A stretch of DNA of 20,460 nucleotides, taken from Actinomycetota bacterium (lineage in GTDB: Bacteria; Actinomycetota; Thermoleophilia; Solirubrobacterales; Solirubrobacteraceae). Positions 2,804-14,063 of this stretch are shown here, piece after piece (positions within the stretch are counted from its first letter, which is position 1; the number at the start of each line of letters is the position of its first letter). A program made the position numbers and the translations under genes. The stretch is from NCBI GenBank assembly GCA_005883905.1, contig VAYD01000205.1, positions 1 through 20,460 of the forward strand. Reading direction: 5' to 3'. A model generated the notes under the pieces. It worked only from the letters and a program-made list of their open reading frames with translations, was not told the origin of the DNA and searched no databases.

Positions 2804-4000
2804 GTGTCGGGCCAGGAACACGGCGTGGGCAGCGAGGTCGGGCGCCTGCGCACCGTGATCCTGCACCGCCCGGGCGACGAGCTGCGGCGGCTCACGCCGC
2901 GCAACAACGACGAGCTGCTGTTCGACGGCGTGCCATGGGTCGAGCGCGCGCAGGCCGAGCACGACACGTTCGCCGACCAGCTGCGTGAGCGCGCCGTGGA
3001 GGTGCTCTACCTCGCCGACCTGCTCACCGAGACGCTCGAGGCCGGCGGCGCGCGCGACGAGCTGCTCGACGCGGCGCTGCGCCCGCAGGACATCGGCCCG
3101 ACGCTCGCGCCCGCGCTGCGCGACCACCTCGCCGAGCTGCCGAGCCCGCAGCTCGCGCGTGCGCTGATGGCCGGGATCGCCCACGGCGAGCTGCCGGTGC
3201 GAGGCGGCCTGATGGACGCGATGACCGACGCGCAGGAGTTCATCGTCCGGCCGCTGCCGAACCTGCTGTTCACGCGCGACTCGAGCGTCTGGCTGACGGG
3301 CGGCGTCGCGGTCGGCCGCCTCGCGCTGCCCGCGCGCCGGCGCGAGAGCACGATCACCGCCGCGATCTACCGCCACCATCCGCGCTTCGCCGGGACCGAG
3401 GTTCTCTACGGCGCCGACGACGACGACGCCTGGGTCGAGGGCGGCGACGTGCTGTGCCTCGCCGACGGCGTGCTGGCCGTCGGTGTCGGGCAGCGAACGC
3501 GGCCGGCCGGGGCGGAGAGCTTCGCGCAGCGCCTGTTCGCGTCGGGCGCGGCCCGCACCGTGCTCGCCGTGCCGATCGCGCAGGACCGCGCGACGATGCA
3601 CCTGGACACGATCTGCACGATGGTCGACCGCGACGCCGTCGTGATGTACCCGCAGATCGCGCACACGCTGACGGCGTTCACGCTCACACCCGACGGCCGC
3701 GTCGGCGGGCCGGCGCCGTTCCTCGACGCGGCTGCGCGCGCGATGGGGATCGGGCGGCTGCGCGTGATCGACACCGGCCTCGATCCGGTCACCGCGGAGC
3801 GGGAGCAGTGGGACGACGGCAACAACACGCTCGCGCTCGGGCCGGGCACCGTCGTCGCCTACGAGCGCAACCGCGAGACCAATGCGCGCCTGCGCGACGC
3901 CGGGATCGAGGTCGTCGCGATCCCCGGCAGCGAGCTCGGCACCGGTCGCGGCGGCCCGCGCTGCATGTCGTGCCCGGTCCTGCGCGACCCGCTCGACTGA
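2804..4000 (+). CDS. arcA: Arginine deiminase
   Basis: It hydrolyses L-arginine to L-citrulline and ammonia in the cytoplasm. The 398-aa length fits the family. All expected active-site residues can be placed by motif: Asp159 in FTRDSS, Glu212 in WVEGGD, His266 and Asp268 in MHLDT, and the nucleophile Cys387 in GGPRCMSCP near the C-terminus. The N-terminal [15 protein letters not shown] strand and the NNDELLFD segment are also typical. The start GTG at 2804 is supported by the -10 box. No ornithine carbamoyltransferase (arcB), carbamate kinase (arcC) or arginine/ornithine antiporter gene lies in the window, so ATP production by the full pathway is not shown here. The next gene follows after 34 bases on the same strand. 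Confidence 0.96.
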
Positions 4001-7184: not shown

Positions 7185-8026
7185 CGCCGAGCGTCGTCGC
7201 GGGAGCCGCGGCGGCGCTCGCCTTCGGGGTCTCGACGCTGTGCTCAGCCAGGGCGAGCCGCGCGCTCGGGGCCGGTTCGACGCTGGGCTGGGTGGCGATC
7301 GTCGGCCTGGTGGGCGTGCTCCCGCTGCTGGTGCTCAACGGCGCCGGTCCCGGTCTGGATGGGCCGGCGGTGGCGTGGCTGCTCGTCGCAGGGGCCGGGA
7401 ACGTGTGCGGGCTGCTGTTCGCCTATCGCGGGGTTCAGCAGGCCAAGGTGGGGATCGTCGCGCCCATCCTCTCGACCGAGGGCGCCGTCGCGGCAGTCCT
7501 CGCCGTGATCGGGGGCCAAGCCCTTCCCACGCCCGCGGCGGCGGCGCTCGCGATCATCGCCGGCGGCGTCGTGCTGGCGGGGATCTCGCGCCTCCAGCCC
7601 GGCGACGGACGGTCCGTGGGCGCGGGAGTGCCCTGGGCAGTCGCCGGTGCCGTGGCGTTCGGCGCCAGCCTCTACGCGACAGGTCGGGCCGGCGCGGTCC
7701 TTCCGCTCGCGTGGGCCATCCTGCCGCCGCGCCTGGTCGGTTCGGTCGTGGTGACCGCGCCGCTCGCACTCACCGGGCGCCTACGGATCAGCCGAACGAC
7801 CGCTCCGCTGGTTGCCGCCGCGGGGATCTGCGAGATCGCCGGCTTCGCGCTGTACACCATCGGCGCCCGCGAGGACATCGCGGTCACCGCGGTGCTCGTC
7901 TCGCTGTTCGGCGCCGTCGCCGCGCTGCTCGCGCGATTCGTGTTCCGCGAGCGGCTCACCCGGACGCAGCTCGTGGGAGTCGCGACGATCGTCGCGGGGG
8001 TCATAGCGCTGAGCGTCAGCCCGTGA
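7181..8026 (+). CDS. DMT-superfamily EamA-type transporter
   Basis: This integral membrane protein of 281 aa contains two EamA repeats (about residues 5-130 and 145-278) and about ten hydrophobic helices, typical of drug/metabolite exporters. The second repeat ends with [23 protein letters not shown], the usual closing segment of the family. Its ATG overlaps the stop of the serine hydrolase gene (ATGA, 7181-7184), so it was probably translationally coupled to it. Because the hydrolase frameshift leaves the reading frame open into this gene, ribosomes now reach it in frame from upstream. The substrate is unknown. Its 3' end overlaps the convergent hutI by 11 bases. Confidence 0.85.
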
Positions 8027-9119
8027 TCGTCTGCGCCACGAGCGGCACACCGGGGCGGTAGACGAGGTGCGTGTAGGACGGCGCGTCGAGGATGACGGCG
8101 TCGGCGCGCGCGCCGGGGGCCAGGTGCCCGACGTCGTCGCGGCGCAGCGCGCGGGCACCGCCGAGCGTCGCGGCGCGCAGCGCCTCCTGCGCGGTCATGC
8201 GCATGTCGCGCACGGCGAGCGCGATGCAGAACGCCATCGAGGTGGTGTAGCTCGAGCCGGGGTTGCAGTTCGTCGCGATCGCGACCTCGACGCCCGCGTC
8301 GATCGCGCGGCGCGCGTCGGGGTACGGCTGGCGCGTGGAGAAGTCGGTCGCGGGCAGGAACGTCGCGACCGTGTCGCTGCCCGCGAGCGCCTCGATGTCG
8401 GCGTCGCTCAGGTACGTGCAGTGGTCGACCGACGCGGCGCCCATCTCGACGGCGAGCTGCACGCCCGGCCCGTCGCCGAGTTGGTTCCCGTGGACGCGCA
8501 GGCCCAGGCCGGCGATGGCGCCGGCGTGCAGGACGGCTGCGGACTGGTCGGCGTCGAACGCCCCCTCCTCGCAGAAGACGTCGATCCAGCGCGAGCGCGG
8601 CGCGCAGGCGGCGAGCATCTCGCCGCAGACGAGCTCGACGTAGTCGTCGGCGCAGCCCTCGTATTCGGCCGGCACGACGTGGGCGCCGAGGAAGGTGACG
8701 TCGTCGGTGAACTGGCCCGCCACCTCGCACAGCCGCCGCTCGGTCTCGACGTCCAGGCCGTAGCCGGACTTGATCTCGAGGTGCGTGATGCCGGCCCGGC
8801 GCGCCTCCTCGCGGCGCGCGCGCGTGAGCCGCATCAGCTCGTCGTCGGATGCCGCCCTGGTCGCCTCCGTCGTGACGCGGATCCCGCCGGCCCCGTACGG
8901 CGCACCCGCCATCCGCGCGGCGAACTCCTCCGAGCGGTCGCCCGCGAACACCAGGTGCGTGTGGCTGTCGACGAACCCGGGGATCACGCAGCGCCCGCCG
9001 GCATCGATGCGCTCGTCGCCCTGCGCCCCCGCCCGCTCGACCGCGACGACGACGCCGTCCTCGATCACCAGCGCCGCATCGCGCACCTCGCCGAGCTCGT
9101 CGTCGTTCGTGACGAGCAA
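8016..9119 (-). CDS. hutI: Imidazolonepropionase
   Basis: It hydrolyses 4-imidazolone-5-propanoate to N-formimino-L-glutamate, the third step of histidine degradation. It is a metal-dependent amidohydrolase. Numbered from the TTG at 9119, the HxH metal motif is His53/His55 in [15 protein letters not shown]. Other motifs are [10 protein letters not shown] (about 113-122), [10 protein letters not shown] with His210, and [10 protein letters not shown] with His233. In the ATNCNPGSS segment, Asn284 stands where many family members have a metal-ligand Asp. Coding homology continues upstream of 9119 (LILIVDNIG before LLVTND), so the real start is probably CTG 9146 or ATT 9143, overlapping the hutF stop; 9119 is only the first canonical start. 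It is the last gene of the hut operon. Confidence 0.93.
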
Positions 9120-9136: not shown

Positions 9137-9167
9137 TGAGAATCAGGGGTCTGACCCCTCAGTCTCA
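9137..9167. repeat. REP-like palindrome across the hutF/hutI junction
   Basis: The core AGGGGTC-T-GACCCCT is a perfect 7-bp inverted repeat (9145-9159). Outside it, TGAGA/TCTCA arms (9137-9141 and 9163-9167) pair again after a 3-nt partly mismatched step, giving a 31-nt hairpin. It contains the hutF stop and the probable hutI start and encodes the GSDP tail of HutF. The GGGGTC...GACCCC core recurs in the hairpin at 20194-20239. Confidence 0.6.
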
Positions 9168-10319
9168 CCGTTCCGAACAATCCAGCGGCCGGCGACCATG
9201 ACGTCGCGGACGTCGCGGGGGCCGGCGGCGAAGACGGTTGCCTCGACCGCATGCTCGGGCGGGGTGCCGGTCAGCGTGACGCCGTCGAGCGAGACGTTCA
9301 CGAGGTCCGCCGGCGCGCCCGGCGCGATGCGGCCGCCGCCGCGTGTGGCGGCCGCGCTCGCCGCTCGCCAGGCGCTCGTCGAGCTCGATCGCGCGCGCCT
9401 CCTCGAACAGGTCGATGAACGCCTGCGAGTCCGAGCCGACGCAGAGCTTCGAGCCCGCCTCGCGCAGGAGCCGCGCCGGGCCGATGCCGTCGGCGAGGTC
9501 GCGCTCGGTGGTGGGGCACAGGCAGACCCGCGCGAAGCCGAGCAGCGTCACGTCGTTGTCAGAGAGATGGGTCGCGTGGATCGCGGTGAACGACGGCGAG
9601 ACCGCTCCGGCCTCGGCCAGCGTCATCGTCGGCGTCAGCCCGTTCTCCTCGAGGCACGCCTCGTTCTCCGCGGGCTGCTCGGAGACGTGCGCGTGCAGCG
9701 GCGCGCCGTGCTCCGTGGCCCACGCGGCGACGACCTTCGACGATTCGAAGTCGACCGCGCGGACGCTGTGGATCGCCGCGCCGATGCGGACCGTGTCGCC
9801 ACCCCGCAGGTTGCTCACGCGCGCCGCCCAGGCGTCGGCGCTGCGGTCGCGGAAGCTGTCCAGCCCGCCGCGCAGGTAGCACGCGTCCAGCAGCGTCAAC
9901 CGGATGCCCACATCATCCGCCGCCTGGATCACGGCCTCGCCCATCGCGTTGCCGCCCTCGTGCAGGTAGTGGAACTCGCCGACGACCGTGATCCCCGCCA
10001 GCGCCATCTCGGCGAACGCCGCCCGCGCGAGCGGCAGGTACGAGTCCGGCGTGATCGTCTCGGCCAGCGCGTACATCTGCTCGCGCCAGGTCCAGAACGA
10101 GCCGGTGCCGGCGTGCGTCCGTCCTCGGAGCGCGCGCTGGAACGCGTGCGAGTGCGCGTTCGCCAGGCCCGGGATCGTCAGGCCGGGCAGCCGCTCGGCG
10201 TCGGCGGGCGGCTTGGCGCCGGCCGCGACCGACGCGATGCTCGCGCCGTCGATCTCGATCAGCACGCCGTGCTCCGGCTCGTCGCCGCCGACCCACGCGA
10301 GCTCGCACCAGAGCTTCAT
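9143..10319 (-). pseudogene. hutF: Formimidoylglutamate deiminase, frameshifted near the C-terminus
   Basis: HutF converts N-formimino-L-glutamate to N-formyl-L-glutamate and ammonia. It is an amidohydrolase. Starting from ATG 10319 (MKLWCELAW), the metal motif is in AHSHAFQRALRGR, followed by HVSEQPAENE, IHATHLSDND, CLCPTTERDLADG and VGSDSQAFIDLFEEAR, so the whole catalytic barrel is present. After GERGRHT (about 9344) the frame changes: the true continuation RGGGRIAPGAPADLVNVSL...[17 protein letters not shown] lies in another frame and stops at 9143. The segment usually found between (an AAALL...AAT-like helix, about 9 residues) appears to be missing. The overall length, 1177 bases, is not a multiple of three. 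The ATG overlaps the def stop by ATGA, and a GGAGAGGA ribosome site lies upstream. The lesion is either very recent or an assembly error, since the sequence after it is still fully protein-like. Confidence 0.85.
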
Positions 10320-10906
10320 GGGAGGCCGATCCTCTCCAGCCACGCGTCGCGGTGATGGCGGTCGAACTCCTCCCACGTCATGAACGTCCGCGGGTCCTTC
10401 ACGCGGTCCAGGAACAGGATCCCGTCGAGATGGTCGACCTCGTGCTGGAACGTCCCGGCGCTCAGACCTTCGAACGCCTGCTCGCGCGGCGTGCCGTCGC
10501 GGTCGAGGTAGCGGACCCGGATGGCGGCGAAGCGGGCGAGCTCGCCGCGCAGCTCCGGCACCGACAAGCAGCCCTCGATGATCGGGAGGGTCGCGTCGCC
10601 GACGGGCTCGAGCACGGGGTTGACCATCACGGTCAGCGGCAGCGGCGGCTTGTACGGATAGCGCGGGTTGCCGTCGACCTCTGCGACGAGGATGCGGTGC
10701 AGGTCGCCGACCTGGTTGGCCGCCAGCCCCGCGCCGCCGGCCTCGCGCATCGTGGCGATCATGTCGTCGATCAGGCCCTGGAGCTCGGGCAGCTCCTCGG
10801 GCGACACCTCGCGGGCGCGCTCGCGCAGCACCGGGTCGCCCACCTGAAGGATCGGGAGAGTCCTCCGCGGGGCATCCTGCCCCGCGTCCTGAGACCGATC
10901 GCTCAT
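10316..10906 (-). CDS. def: Peptide deformylase homologue inside the hut operon
   Basis: This 196-aa metallohydrolase of the peptide deformylase family removes the N-formyl group from formyl-methionyl peptides in its best known role. All three family motifs are intact: GAGLAANQ at 58-65, EGCLSVP with metal ligand Cys113, and QHEVDHLDG with His155, Glu156 and His159. It is locked into the histidine operon by 4-base ATGA overlaps on both sides (with hutU at 10903-10906 and with hutF at 10316-10319). Such a position is unusual for a housekeeping def gene, which is often beside fmt. The operon encodes HutF, which yields N-formylglutamate, but no recognisable hutG (N-formylglutamate deformylase), so this protein may supply that step; this is inference. 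The family assignment is sure; the substrate is not. Confidence 0.93.
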
Positions 10907-12552
10907 TCGCGCATGGGGATCCGGACCCCGCGCTCGGCCGCAACCTCGATCGCCCGCTCATACCCGGCATCGGCGTGGCGGATGACGCCGGTGCCCGGGT
11001 CGGCCGTCAGCACGCGCTCGAGCTTCTGCGCGGCGAGGTCCGTGCCGTCGGCGACGCAGACCATCCCCGCGTGGATCGAGCGCCCGATGCCGACGCCGCC
11101 GCCGTGGTGGATCGACACCCACGACGCGCCCGCCGCCGTGTTCACCAGCGCGTTGAGCAGCGGCCAGTCCGCGATCGCGTCGGACTCGTCGGCCATGCCC
11201 TCGGTCTCGCGATACGGCGACGCGACCGAGCCCGAATCGAGGTGGTCGCGCCCGATAACGACCGGCCCCTTCAGCTCGCCGCTGCGCACCATCTCGTTGA
11301 AGCGCAGCCCGAGCCGGTGGCGCTCGCCGTAGCCGACCCAGCAGATCCGCGCCGGCAGCCCCTGGAACGCGATCCGCTCGCCCGCCTGCTGCATCCAGCG
11401 CGCCAGCCGCTCGTCGCCCGGCAGCTCCTCCAGCACGGCGCGATCCGTCGCGGCGATGTCCGCCTCGTCGCCCGACAGCGCGACCCACCGGAACGGCCCC
11501 TTGCCCTCGCAGAACAGCGGCCTGATGTACGCGGGCACGAAGCCGGGGTAGGCGAACGCGCGCTCGAACCCGCCGAGCTTCGCCTCCGCGCGCAGCGAGT
11601 TGCCGTAGTCGAACACCTCCGCGCCGGCGTCCAGGAACCCGACCATGGCGGCGCAGTGCGCGGCGATCGCCGCGCGCGACCGGCGCAGGTACTCCTCGGG
11701 GTCCGAGGCCCGCAGCGCGTCGGCGTCCTCGAGCGTCATGCGGTTCGGGATGTAGCCGACGAGCGGGTCGTGCGCGCTCGTCTGGTCGGTGACGATGTCG
11801 GCCTCGAAGCCCATCGACAGCAGCTGCGGCAACACGTCCGCGGCGTTGGCCTGCAGCCCGACGCTCAGCGCGCGCCGCTCGCGCTTGGCGGCCTCGCAGC
11901 GCGCGACCGCATCCTCGAGCGAGTCAGCGAGCTCGTTCAGGTAGCGCCCCTGCAGCCGGCGCTCGATGCGCTCGCGCTCGACCTCCACGCACAGCGCCAC
12001 GCCTCCGTTCATCGTCACCGCCAGCGGCTGCGCGCCGCCCATCCCGCCGAGCCCCGCGGTCACCGTGATCGTCCCGGCCAGCGAGCCGCCGTACTTGCGC
12101 CGCGCGATCTCCGCGAAGCACTCGTAGGTGCCCTGCACGATGCCCTGACTGCCGATGTAGATCCACGAGCCGGCCGTCATCTGGCCGTACATCGTCAACC
12201 CGAGGTCCTCGAGCCGCCGGAACTCGTCCCACGTCGCCCACTCGGGCACGAGGTTCGAGTTCGCGATCAGCACGCGCGGCGCCCACTCGTGCGTGCGAAA
12301 GACGCCGACGGGCTTGCCCGACTGGACGAGCAGCGTCTCGTCTTCAGCCAGCGTCTGCAGCGTGCGCACGATCGCGTCGAACGCCTCCCACGACCGCGCC
12401 GCGCGGCCCGTCCCGCCGTAGACGACGAGGTCCTGCGGGCGCTCGGCCACGTCGGGGTCGAGGTTGTTCATGAGCATGCGCATCGCGGCCTCCTGCGGCC
12501 AGCCCGCGCACGTGATGTCGCTGCCGCGCGGCGCGCGGACCGTCCGGGTCAT
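10903..12552 (-). CDS. hutU: Urocanate hydratase
   Basis: It catalyses the NAD+-dependent hydration of urocanate to 4-imidazolone-5-propanoate, the second step of histidine degradation. The 549-aa length is normal for the family. Typical segments are [11 protein letters not shown] (45-55), [25 protein letters not shown] (about 120-144), the NAD-binding GLGGMGGAQ (167-175), DQTSAHDP, and near the C-terminus [20 protein letters not shown] 12552 was chosen: it overlaps the hutH stop (ATGA) and a GGAG element lies about 10 bases upstream. The frame is open further upstream inside hutH, but only as antisense-type noise. Its stop overlaps the start of the deformylase gene. Confidence 0.97.
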
Positions 12553-14063
12553 TGCAGTGCTCCGATCTGCGCCTCCACGGCGCCGAGCAGCTCGCCCGAC
12601 GCGATCAGCTCCTCCGCCGCGGCGAGGTCCGGCGCCACCGCGCGGTCCGGGCCGGGCCCGGCGACGCCCGTGCGCAGCGCCTGCAGCGCGGCGCCCGTAC
12701 CCGCGCCGGGCTGCAGCGGCGCGCGCAGGTCGAGCCCGCGGCCGGCGCAGACGAGCTCGACCGTCAGGATCCGCCGCAGGTTGGCGACGCTCGCCCGCAG
12801 CTTGCGGGCCGCGCCCCAGCCCATCGAGACGTGGTCCTCCTGCATCGCGCTCGTCGGCAGCGAATCGACCGACGCGGGCGCAGCGAGCCGCCGGTTCTCC
12901 GCGACCATCGCCGCCTGCGTGTACTGGGCGATCATCAGCCCGGAGTTCACGCCCGGGTCCTCGGTGAGGAACGGCGGCAGGCCGTGCGAGCGGCTCGCGT
13001 CGAGCAGCCGGTCGGTCCGGCGCTCGGCGATCGCCCCGACCTCGGCCGCCGCGATCGCGAGGAAGTCGCACACGAAGGCGATCGGCGCGCCGTGGAAGTT
13101 GCCGCACGACTCGACGCGGCCGTCCGGCAGGACCATCGGGTTGTCGATCGCCGAGACGAGCTCGCGGGCGGCCACGCCGTCGGCGTGCGCGAGCGTGTCG
13201 CGCGCCGCGCCCGTGACCTGCGGCGCGCAGCGCAGCGAGTACGCGTCCTGCACGCGGTCGTCGCCATAGCGGTGGCTCGCGACGATCGGCGACCCGGCGA
13301 GCAGCGCGCGCAGGTTGGCCGAGCTCGCCACCTGCCCGGCCTGCGGGCGCAACCAGATCAGGTCCTCCGCGAACGCGCGGTCGGTGCCCATCAGCGCCTC
13401 GACGGACATCGCCGCCGCGACGTCGGCAATCCGCAGGAGGCCGCGCAGGTCATGCGCGGCGAGCAGCAGCATCCCGAGCATGCCGTCGGTGCCGTTGATC
13501 AGCGCCAGGCCCTCCTTGGCCTCCAGCGTGAGCGGTTCGAACGGAAGCGCGCCTCCCTCCAGGGTCTCGCCCTCGCCGATCAGGACCAGCGCGCAGTGGG
13601 CCAGCGGCGCGAGATCGCCGCTGGCGCCGAGCGACCCGTGCTCGGGGACGACCGGGGTGAGGCCGGCGTTCAGCAGGTCGAGGATCCGTTCGGCGACGAC
13701 GGGCCGCGCGCCGGAGCGGCCCATCGCGAGCGTCCGCGCGCGCAGCAGCATCATCGCCCGCACGACCTCGCGCTCGACCGGCGGGCCCATGCCCGCCGCG
13801 TGCGAGCGCACCAGCGCGCGCTGCAGCTCCTCGCGGCGCTCGTCGGGGATCGTCACGTTGGCCAGCGAGCCGAACCCGGTCGAAACGCCGTAGGCGGGCT
13901 CCTCGCCGCCGACCAGGGCGGCGACGACCTGCGCGCTGCGCTCCATCTCGGCGCGCGCCGGCTGGCTGAGCTCCACGCGGGCGCCCGCGCGCGCGACCGC
14001 GACCACGTGAGCCGGCGAGATCCCGGTCCCGCTCAGCTCGACGACGTGCTCGCCAGACTCCAC
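12549..14063 (-). CDS. hutH: Histidine ammonia-lyase
   Basis: It removes ammonia from L-histidine to give trans-urocanate, the entry step of the pathway. It is 504 aa long, as usual. The self-forming MIO electrophile comes from Ala147-Ser148-Gly149 in [12 protein letters not shown], and the conserved active-site Tyr58 lies in [30 protein letters not shown] and [14 protein letters not shown] in the C-terminal half are also typical. The start is GTG 14063; there is no Shine-Dalgarno sequence but a TATCGT box 8 nt upstream suggests a leaderless mRNA. It is the first gene of the five-gene operon, 27 bases after the stop of the diguanylate cyclase gene on the same strand. No hut regulator gene is seen in the window. 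Confidence 0.97.

Follow-up and report, generated by a model that had tools for sequence, protein, structure and literature searches.

The window, i.e. the entire stretch of 20,460 nucleotides analyzed here, harbors a histidine utilization operon on its minus strand, with the gene order hutH-hutU-def-hutF-hutI. The def gene, a homolog of peptide deformylase (PDF) genes, is thereby situated between the genes for urocanate hydratase and formimidoylglutamate deiminase. The features of the operon are:

12549..14063, minus strand: hutH, histidine ammonia-lyase (TIGR01225, 630 bits, over the cut-off)
10903..12552, minus strand: hutU, urocanate hydratase (TIGR01228, 932 bits, over the cut-off)
10316..10906, minus strand: def homolog, proposed N-formyl-L-glutamate deformylase, 196 amino acids (open reading frame, family profiles and AlphaFold2 model)
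10712..10735, minus strand: PDF motif 1, GAGLAANQ, residues 58-65
10562..10576, minus strand: PDF motif 2, EGCLS, residues 111-115, with I110 directly before it
10430..10444, minus strand: PDF motif 3, HEVDH, residues 155-159, with A150-G151-T152-F153 directly before it
9165..10319, minus strand: hutF, formimidoylglutamate deiminase (NF006681, 447 bits)
8016..9119, minus strand: hutI, imidazolonepropionase (TIGR01224, 360 bits, over the cut-off)

ATGA start/stop overlaps connect hutH to hutU (12552-12549), hutU to def (10906-10903) and def to hutF (10319-10316), and the true start of hutI is probably located slightly upstream of the called position 9119. The hutF gene scored over the cut-off of NF006681 (447 versus 362 bits) and under that of TIGR02022 (333 versus 413 bits). 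Because a frameshift near its 3' end puts the tail into a different frame (9337-9167), with about 20 residues missing, only positions 5-362 out of 451 in NF006681 were matched; the frameshift represents either an assembly error in this MAG or real decay. Outside of the operon, an arginine deiminase family gene was found at 2804-4000 on the plus strand (PF02274, 386 bits).

In the Pfam scan, the def product matched PF01327 only (153 bits, cut-off 22.8) and not the HutG/FGase family PF05013. The NCBIfam scan returned NF001159 (157 bits, cut-off 125) and TIGR00079 (112 bits, cut-off 104), while NF006770, the profile of an M20 hydrolase of hut clusters, was not among its matches; the operon slot is all that this hydrolase and the PDF have in common. 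All three PDF metal motifs (G-x-G-x-A-A-x-Q, E-G-C-x-S and H-E-x-D-H) are intact, with Cys113 of motif 2 and His155 and His159 of motif 3 presumably being the metal ligands and Glu156 the catalytic general base. An AlphaFold2 model built from a 65-sequence alignment had a mean pLDDT of 93 and a pTM of 0.88, and its best PDB match was the Leptospira enzyme LiPDF (1sv2; TM 0.83 by query length, rmsd 1.2, 42% identity). As modeled, the protein has the PDF fold. The open reading frames, overlaps and motifs confirm the initial annotation as far as it described an ATGA-coupled def gene with intact metal motifs between hutU and hutF.

N-formylglutamate is the product of HutF, and N-deformylation is the chemistry of PDFs. 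The same annotation had suggested that the def gene is a non-orthologous replacement of HutG (N-formylglutamate amidohydrolase, FGase) in an operon with neither hutG nor the tetrahydrofolate-dependent alternative. The window's genome is a MAG of 556 contigs with a completeness of 64.75%, i.e. about a third may be missing, and a profile search for PF05013 found no match in it. At this completeness the absence is weak evidence by itself, but it is backed by the relatives that have the operon and are likewise without FGase (see below). Two PF01327 genes were identified in the genome, namely the hut-operon copy and a copy on contig C96, where it comes after priA and before the formyltransferase gene fmt. 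The latter is the second def beside fmt that had been envisaged, so the hut-operon def is not the only one in the genome, and the housekeeping PDF is separate from it. Neither of the situations that the initial annotation regarded as refuting was encountered in this incomplete genome.

Among the near relatives, a set of 61 genomes (the window's own and 60 others), hutF was found over the cut-off in 14 and FGase in two, neither of which was among the 14. A PDF gene directly adjoins hutF in the window's genome (G000) and in G022, G044, G052 and G053, and comes after hutI in G033; FGase was found in none of these five relatives with the operon. An M20 hydrolase gene occurs in the hut cluster of G024 (454 bits), G029 (330 bits, under the cut-off of 372) and G003 (a fragment at a contig end). 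Neither a PDF nor an M20 gene was found in the DNA around hutF in the remaining five of the 14 (G009, G012, G032, G046 and G060; the G046 locus ends at a contig end). A separate observation in G012 is one long frame with two tandem PDF domains (L050:8598-6715), of which one has the altered motifs EGNLCLP and HEIEI.

A scan of species genomes, seeded with an alignment of six hut-linked PDFs, identified 523 loci encoding a relative, the best 80 of which were examined; the subfamily is larger than these 80. In 40 of the best 80 loci (out of 523), hut genes are found in line with the PDF gene, and by their titles 36 of these belong to Actinomycetota while four are given without phylum (three 'bacterium' and one Candidatus Microthrix). 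Two of them, L052 and L054, are contigs of G033 and G022, respectively, and are therefore not independent of the near-relative loci. The most common order in the 40 hut-linked loci among the best 80 is hutU-def-hutF (35 loci), followed by hutU-hutF-def-hutI (three) and def after hutI (two). The distance from def to hutF could be measured in 34 hut-linked loci, with a median of -4 bases and a value of at most 30 bases in 30 of them.

Several hut-linked loci have a further gene between hutU and def. According to the scans, this is a PhyH gene (phytanoyl-CoA dioxygenase, PF05721) in L062 (6195-6989) and L101 (6168-6989), and an MTTB gene (trimethylamine methyltransferase family, PF06253, 627 bits) in L097 (4766-6307). 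Open reading frames judged by eye to resemble the PhyH gene take this position in L078, L082 and L112.

The other 40 of the best 80 loci (out of 523) had no hut genes in the DNA examined and are distributed over Myxococcota (32), Pseudomonadota (two) and titles without phylum (six). No conserved neighborhood was seen by eye for the non-hut PDFs in 11 of these 40 loci.

A sample of the phylum that is less biased than the best-matching loci, consisting of 198 Actinomycetota genomes including the window's own, was searched for hut-type PDFs (E <= 1e-45) and hutF (E <= 1e-90). Hut-type PDFs were found in seven genomes, hutF in 42 and FGase in 16. By coordinates, six out of the seven PDF genes are located directly beside hutF, or five out of six when the window's own genome is left out. 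In the seventh genome, G219, the PDF gene is not beside hutF, and the 11 kb of surrounding DNA that were covered showed no hut gene. Since the arrangement recurs in 40 hut-linked loci and in six out of seven genomes of the phylum sample, a chance adjacency of PDF and hutF was rejected. The expectation of def-hutF adjacency together with a mostly absent FGase held in the surveys of related genomes, where it is widespread in Actinomycetota.

In a quick tree of 107 rows, 41 hut-linked rows gathered apart from most others, while three (L118, L120 and L123, all with hutU-hutF-def-hutI) were placed among Myxococcota rows on starred branches. The two independent recruitments of the PDF that this suggested were dropped, as a single clade for all 44 hut-linked rows was not rejected (p-AU 0.76) and the tree constrained to one clade scored higher; four long-branch rows (L158_2nd, L049_2nd, L126 and L146_2nd) were left out of this test.

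The gene could encode an ordinary second PDF that acts on formyl-Met peptides and just happens to be located in the hut operon, with formylglutamate handled by an unrelated enzyme elsewhere. Such an enzyme would be expected to have the full motifs and fold and a score over the TIGR00079 equivalog cut-off, all of which are found, and the 40 loci among the best 80 (of 523) that are not hut-linked also agree with it. Against this stands the position of the gene, as the PDF directly adjoins hutF in 38 of the 40 hut-linked loci among the best 80 and hutI in the other two. Moreover, 39 of the 40 hut-PDF genomes from the best 80 of 523 loci encode at least one further PDF (at least two PF01327 genes in total), and the residues at positions 59, 151 and 152 are rare in or absent from a set of 23 comparison PDFs and differ from those of the solved close PDFs. 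We consider this explanation improbable.

These positions were assigned by alignment and by the E. coli numbering, with 84 subfamily rows, hut and non-hut, set against the 23 comparison PDFs. Residues 59, 151 and 152 would be equivalent to I44, I128 and C129 of the S1' (Met) pocket of the E. coli PDF. A59 is present in 82 out of 84 subfamily rows versus two of the 23 comparison PDFs (V11 I9 A2 R1), G151 in 79 out of 84 versus none (R18 V3 I1 E1), and T152 in all 84 versus none (V7 L5 A4 I4 C3). By this alignment, the hut-operon PDF does not have the ordinary hydrophobic Met pocket residues (A59, G151 and T152 instead), and its S1' pocket looks wider and more polar. The initial annotation had proposed to look for a basic residue in place of the hydrophobic pocket. 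The S1' positions do differ from ordinary PDFs, but no new basic residue occurs at them in the alignment of 84 rows and 23 comparison PDFs, and non-hut relatives have the same changes.

Among the invariant basic residues, R82 and K86 come nearest; both are on the loop that precedes the strand 89-101, and K86 is found in all 84 subfamily rows and in none of the 23 comparison PDFs (17 of which have a gap). R120 is also invariant in the 84 rows, and is present in the E. coli PDF as well. R82, K86 and R120 are candidate carboxylate binders. The pocket changes are common to the 40 non-hut relatives from the best 80 of 523 loci, of which 32 are titled Myxococcota, so they did not arise for the hut role. 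We infer that the pocket features either predate this role or belong to a broader activity on formyl amino acids. Examples of non-hut Myxococcota loci with a PDF of the same subfamily and the same pocket changes are L064, L067, L080 and L093.

Position 110 was the main mark separating hut from non-hut rows, with N in all but one of the 41 rows that make up the main hut group. It was rejected as a specificity mark, since the window's protein and most of its nearest homologs (90 of the 120 best) carry I110.

Further evidence comes from the distribution of FGase. In the phylum sample, 10 out of 42 hutF genomes have FGase, including one (G200) of the six hut-PDF genomes, while the other 32 are without it. 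FGase is absent from 35 of the 40 hut-PDF genomes from the best 80 of 523 loci, and the matches in the remaining five score 62 to 150 bits. A strong FGase was found in all ten non-hut Myxococcota genomes searched (of the 40 non-hut loci), with best matches of 172 to 217 bits. However, the 18 kb surrounding hutU in these ten genomes contained neither hutF nor FGase, and no hut genes were seen in the short loci around their FGase. Because their hutU regions are without hutF, the Myxococcota FGase was set aside as a clean contrast, and it says little about the pathway.

In other actinobacteria, the place beside hutF is mostly taken by an M20 gene. Out of 30 hutF loci of the phylum sample, 23 had M20 beside or near hutF (L163-L177, L180-L186 and L188), four had the PDF, three had neither, also in the wider DNA around them, and none had both. 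Another six hutF genomes added two with PDF (G000 and G268), two with M20 (G121 and G189) and two with neither (G219 and G280). The combined count for 36 of the 42 hutF genomes, which leaves out G136, G151, G196, G207, G227 and G300, is thereby 25 M20 ('allantoate amidohydrolase'-like), six PDF, five neither and none with both. In the common gene order, the slot flanked by hutU and hutF contains either M20 or the PDF, two unrelated genes, although M20 is found elsewhere in some clusters. Hut-type M20, i.e. NF006770 over the cut-off, was found in none of 51 hut-PDF genome entries versus three out of three controls; these entries include at least three repeats (G033/G061, G022/G063 and, judged by an identical contig place, G206/G079).

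Some hutF loci have neither gene, and a missing HutG alone therefore does not prove a substitute in the operon. Loci without a PDF, without M20 in the DNA examined and in a genome without FGase are L041, L042, L044, L047, L204, L205, L210, L237 and L238.

PMC3223725 lists COG0624 as having been predicted in SEED to provide an alternative N-formylglutamate deformylase, which shows that the gap at this step had been recognized. According to the same paper, the COG0624 protein of Streptomyces avermitilis had no deformylase activity and the prediction is listed as invalidated. It is our own reading that this protein is the M20 hydrolase of the hut cluster. The negative result weakens the argument that the occupant of the slot must be a deformylase.

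The formylglutamate step could also be performed by a true HutG or some other hydrolase encoded elsewhere, the PDF then being accessory and acting on e.g. other N-formyl amino acids. In line with this are the FGase-family proteins in five of the 40 hut-PDF genomes (from the best 80 of 523 loci) and in G200, as well as weaker M20 homologs (E <= 1e-60, under the hut-type cut-off) in 33 of the 51 hut-PDF genome entries. One of these (L065:11966-13132, 38% identity to the M20 protein of G024) is found near a PDF-bearing hut operon, some 1.9 kb beyond its hutI, which is the sole such case in 40 hut-PDF loci. Yet the 35 out of 40 hut-PDF genomes without FGase, and the lack of hut-type M20 over the cut-off from all 51 entries, make this explanation highly improbable.

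Lastly, the substrate of the PDF might not be N-formylglutamate but a different intermediate, such as N-formimino-L-glutamate. The gene order does vary, with two loci having def after hutI and four having hutU-hutF-def-hutI, so def is not strictly placed at one step. However, hutF, with N-formylglutamate as its product, is present in all 40 hut-linked loci among the best 80 of 523, and N-deformylation is what PDFs perform; the odds of this alternative are therefore slight in our view, the smallest of those considered.

Taken together, the recurrence, the ATGA coupling, the separate housekeeping PDFs and the exchange of the slot provide good support for the replacement reading of the initial annotation, the function being our inference. 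We judge it quite probable, as predicted from gene order, that the hut-PDF subfamily hydrolyses N-formyl-L-glutamate as a non-orthologous replacement of HutG. Points that speak against this are the lack of a new basic residue at the S1' positions, the pocket changes common to hut and non-hut relatives, the I110 of the window's protein, the FGase-family and M20 proteins in some hut-PDF genomes, the hutF loci with neither PDF nor M20, and the negative result for the Streptomyces avermitilis protein. The metal-dependent PDF-fold hydrolase would cleave N-formyl-L-glutamate, as delivered by HutF, to formate and L-glutamate, and would thereby complete histidine breakdown in place of HutG. Following the usual PDF chemistry, the metal would be held by Cys113, His155 and His159, with Glu156 as general base, and the substrate choice would have shifted away from formyl-Met peptides and towards a free formyl amino acid. 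The carboxylates would then be read by residues such as the candidates R82, K86 and R120, and by the putatively wider and more polar S1' pocket with A59, G151 and T152.

In many actinobacteria, a PDF relative seems to have taken the place of the gene for the last step of histidine breakdown. In a broader sense, we find it reasonably likely that a whole PDF-fold subfamily left protein maturation for small-molecule catabolism. In Thermoleophilia, Acidimicrobiia and related actinobacteria it would serve histidine utilization as N-formyl-L-glutamate deformylase, in a slot exchangeable with M20, and its sister group in Myxococcota may likewise have free formyl amino acids as substrates. As many actinobacteria carry HutF without a recognizable HutG (32 out of the 42 hutF genomes of the phylum sample have no FGase), the PDF at this slot constitutes a directly testable candidate for the N-formylglutamate deformylase. 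If this is true, a translation-linked enzyme was recruited to amino-acid catabolism, and the annotation 'peptide deformylase' may mislead for this subfamily. Within the literature searched in full text, no paper names both peptide deformylase and formylglutamate, and among further papers listed, no title or abstract beginning makes this connection; papers that name peptide deformylase and a hut enzyme exist, e.g. PMC8617998 and PMC8407117.

Compared with known systems, the hut-PDF would share its reaction and pathway step with HutG (N-formylglutamate amidohydrolase, FGase, PF05013, EC 3.5.1.68), which nevertheless belongs to an unrelated family, not matched in the window's genome. The M20 'allantoate amidohydrolase'-like protein (NF006770) occupies the same slot by hutF in other actinobacteria, but it too is of an unrelated family, and its presumed Streptomyces avermitilis representative is without deformylase activity according to PMC3223725. 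With LiPDF and the 'class I type b' PDFs (1sv2, 6jf9, 5kob and 4nt8), the hut-PDF has the fold, the three motifs, the R82-Y83-P84 loop and R120 in common. The hut form is distinguished from the solved enzymes 1sv2 and 6jfc by A59 in place of V59, N or I110 in place of W110, K86 in place of T or A, T152 in place of V152, and its location in the hut operon.
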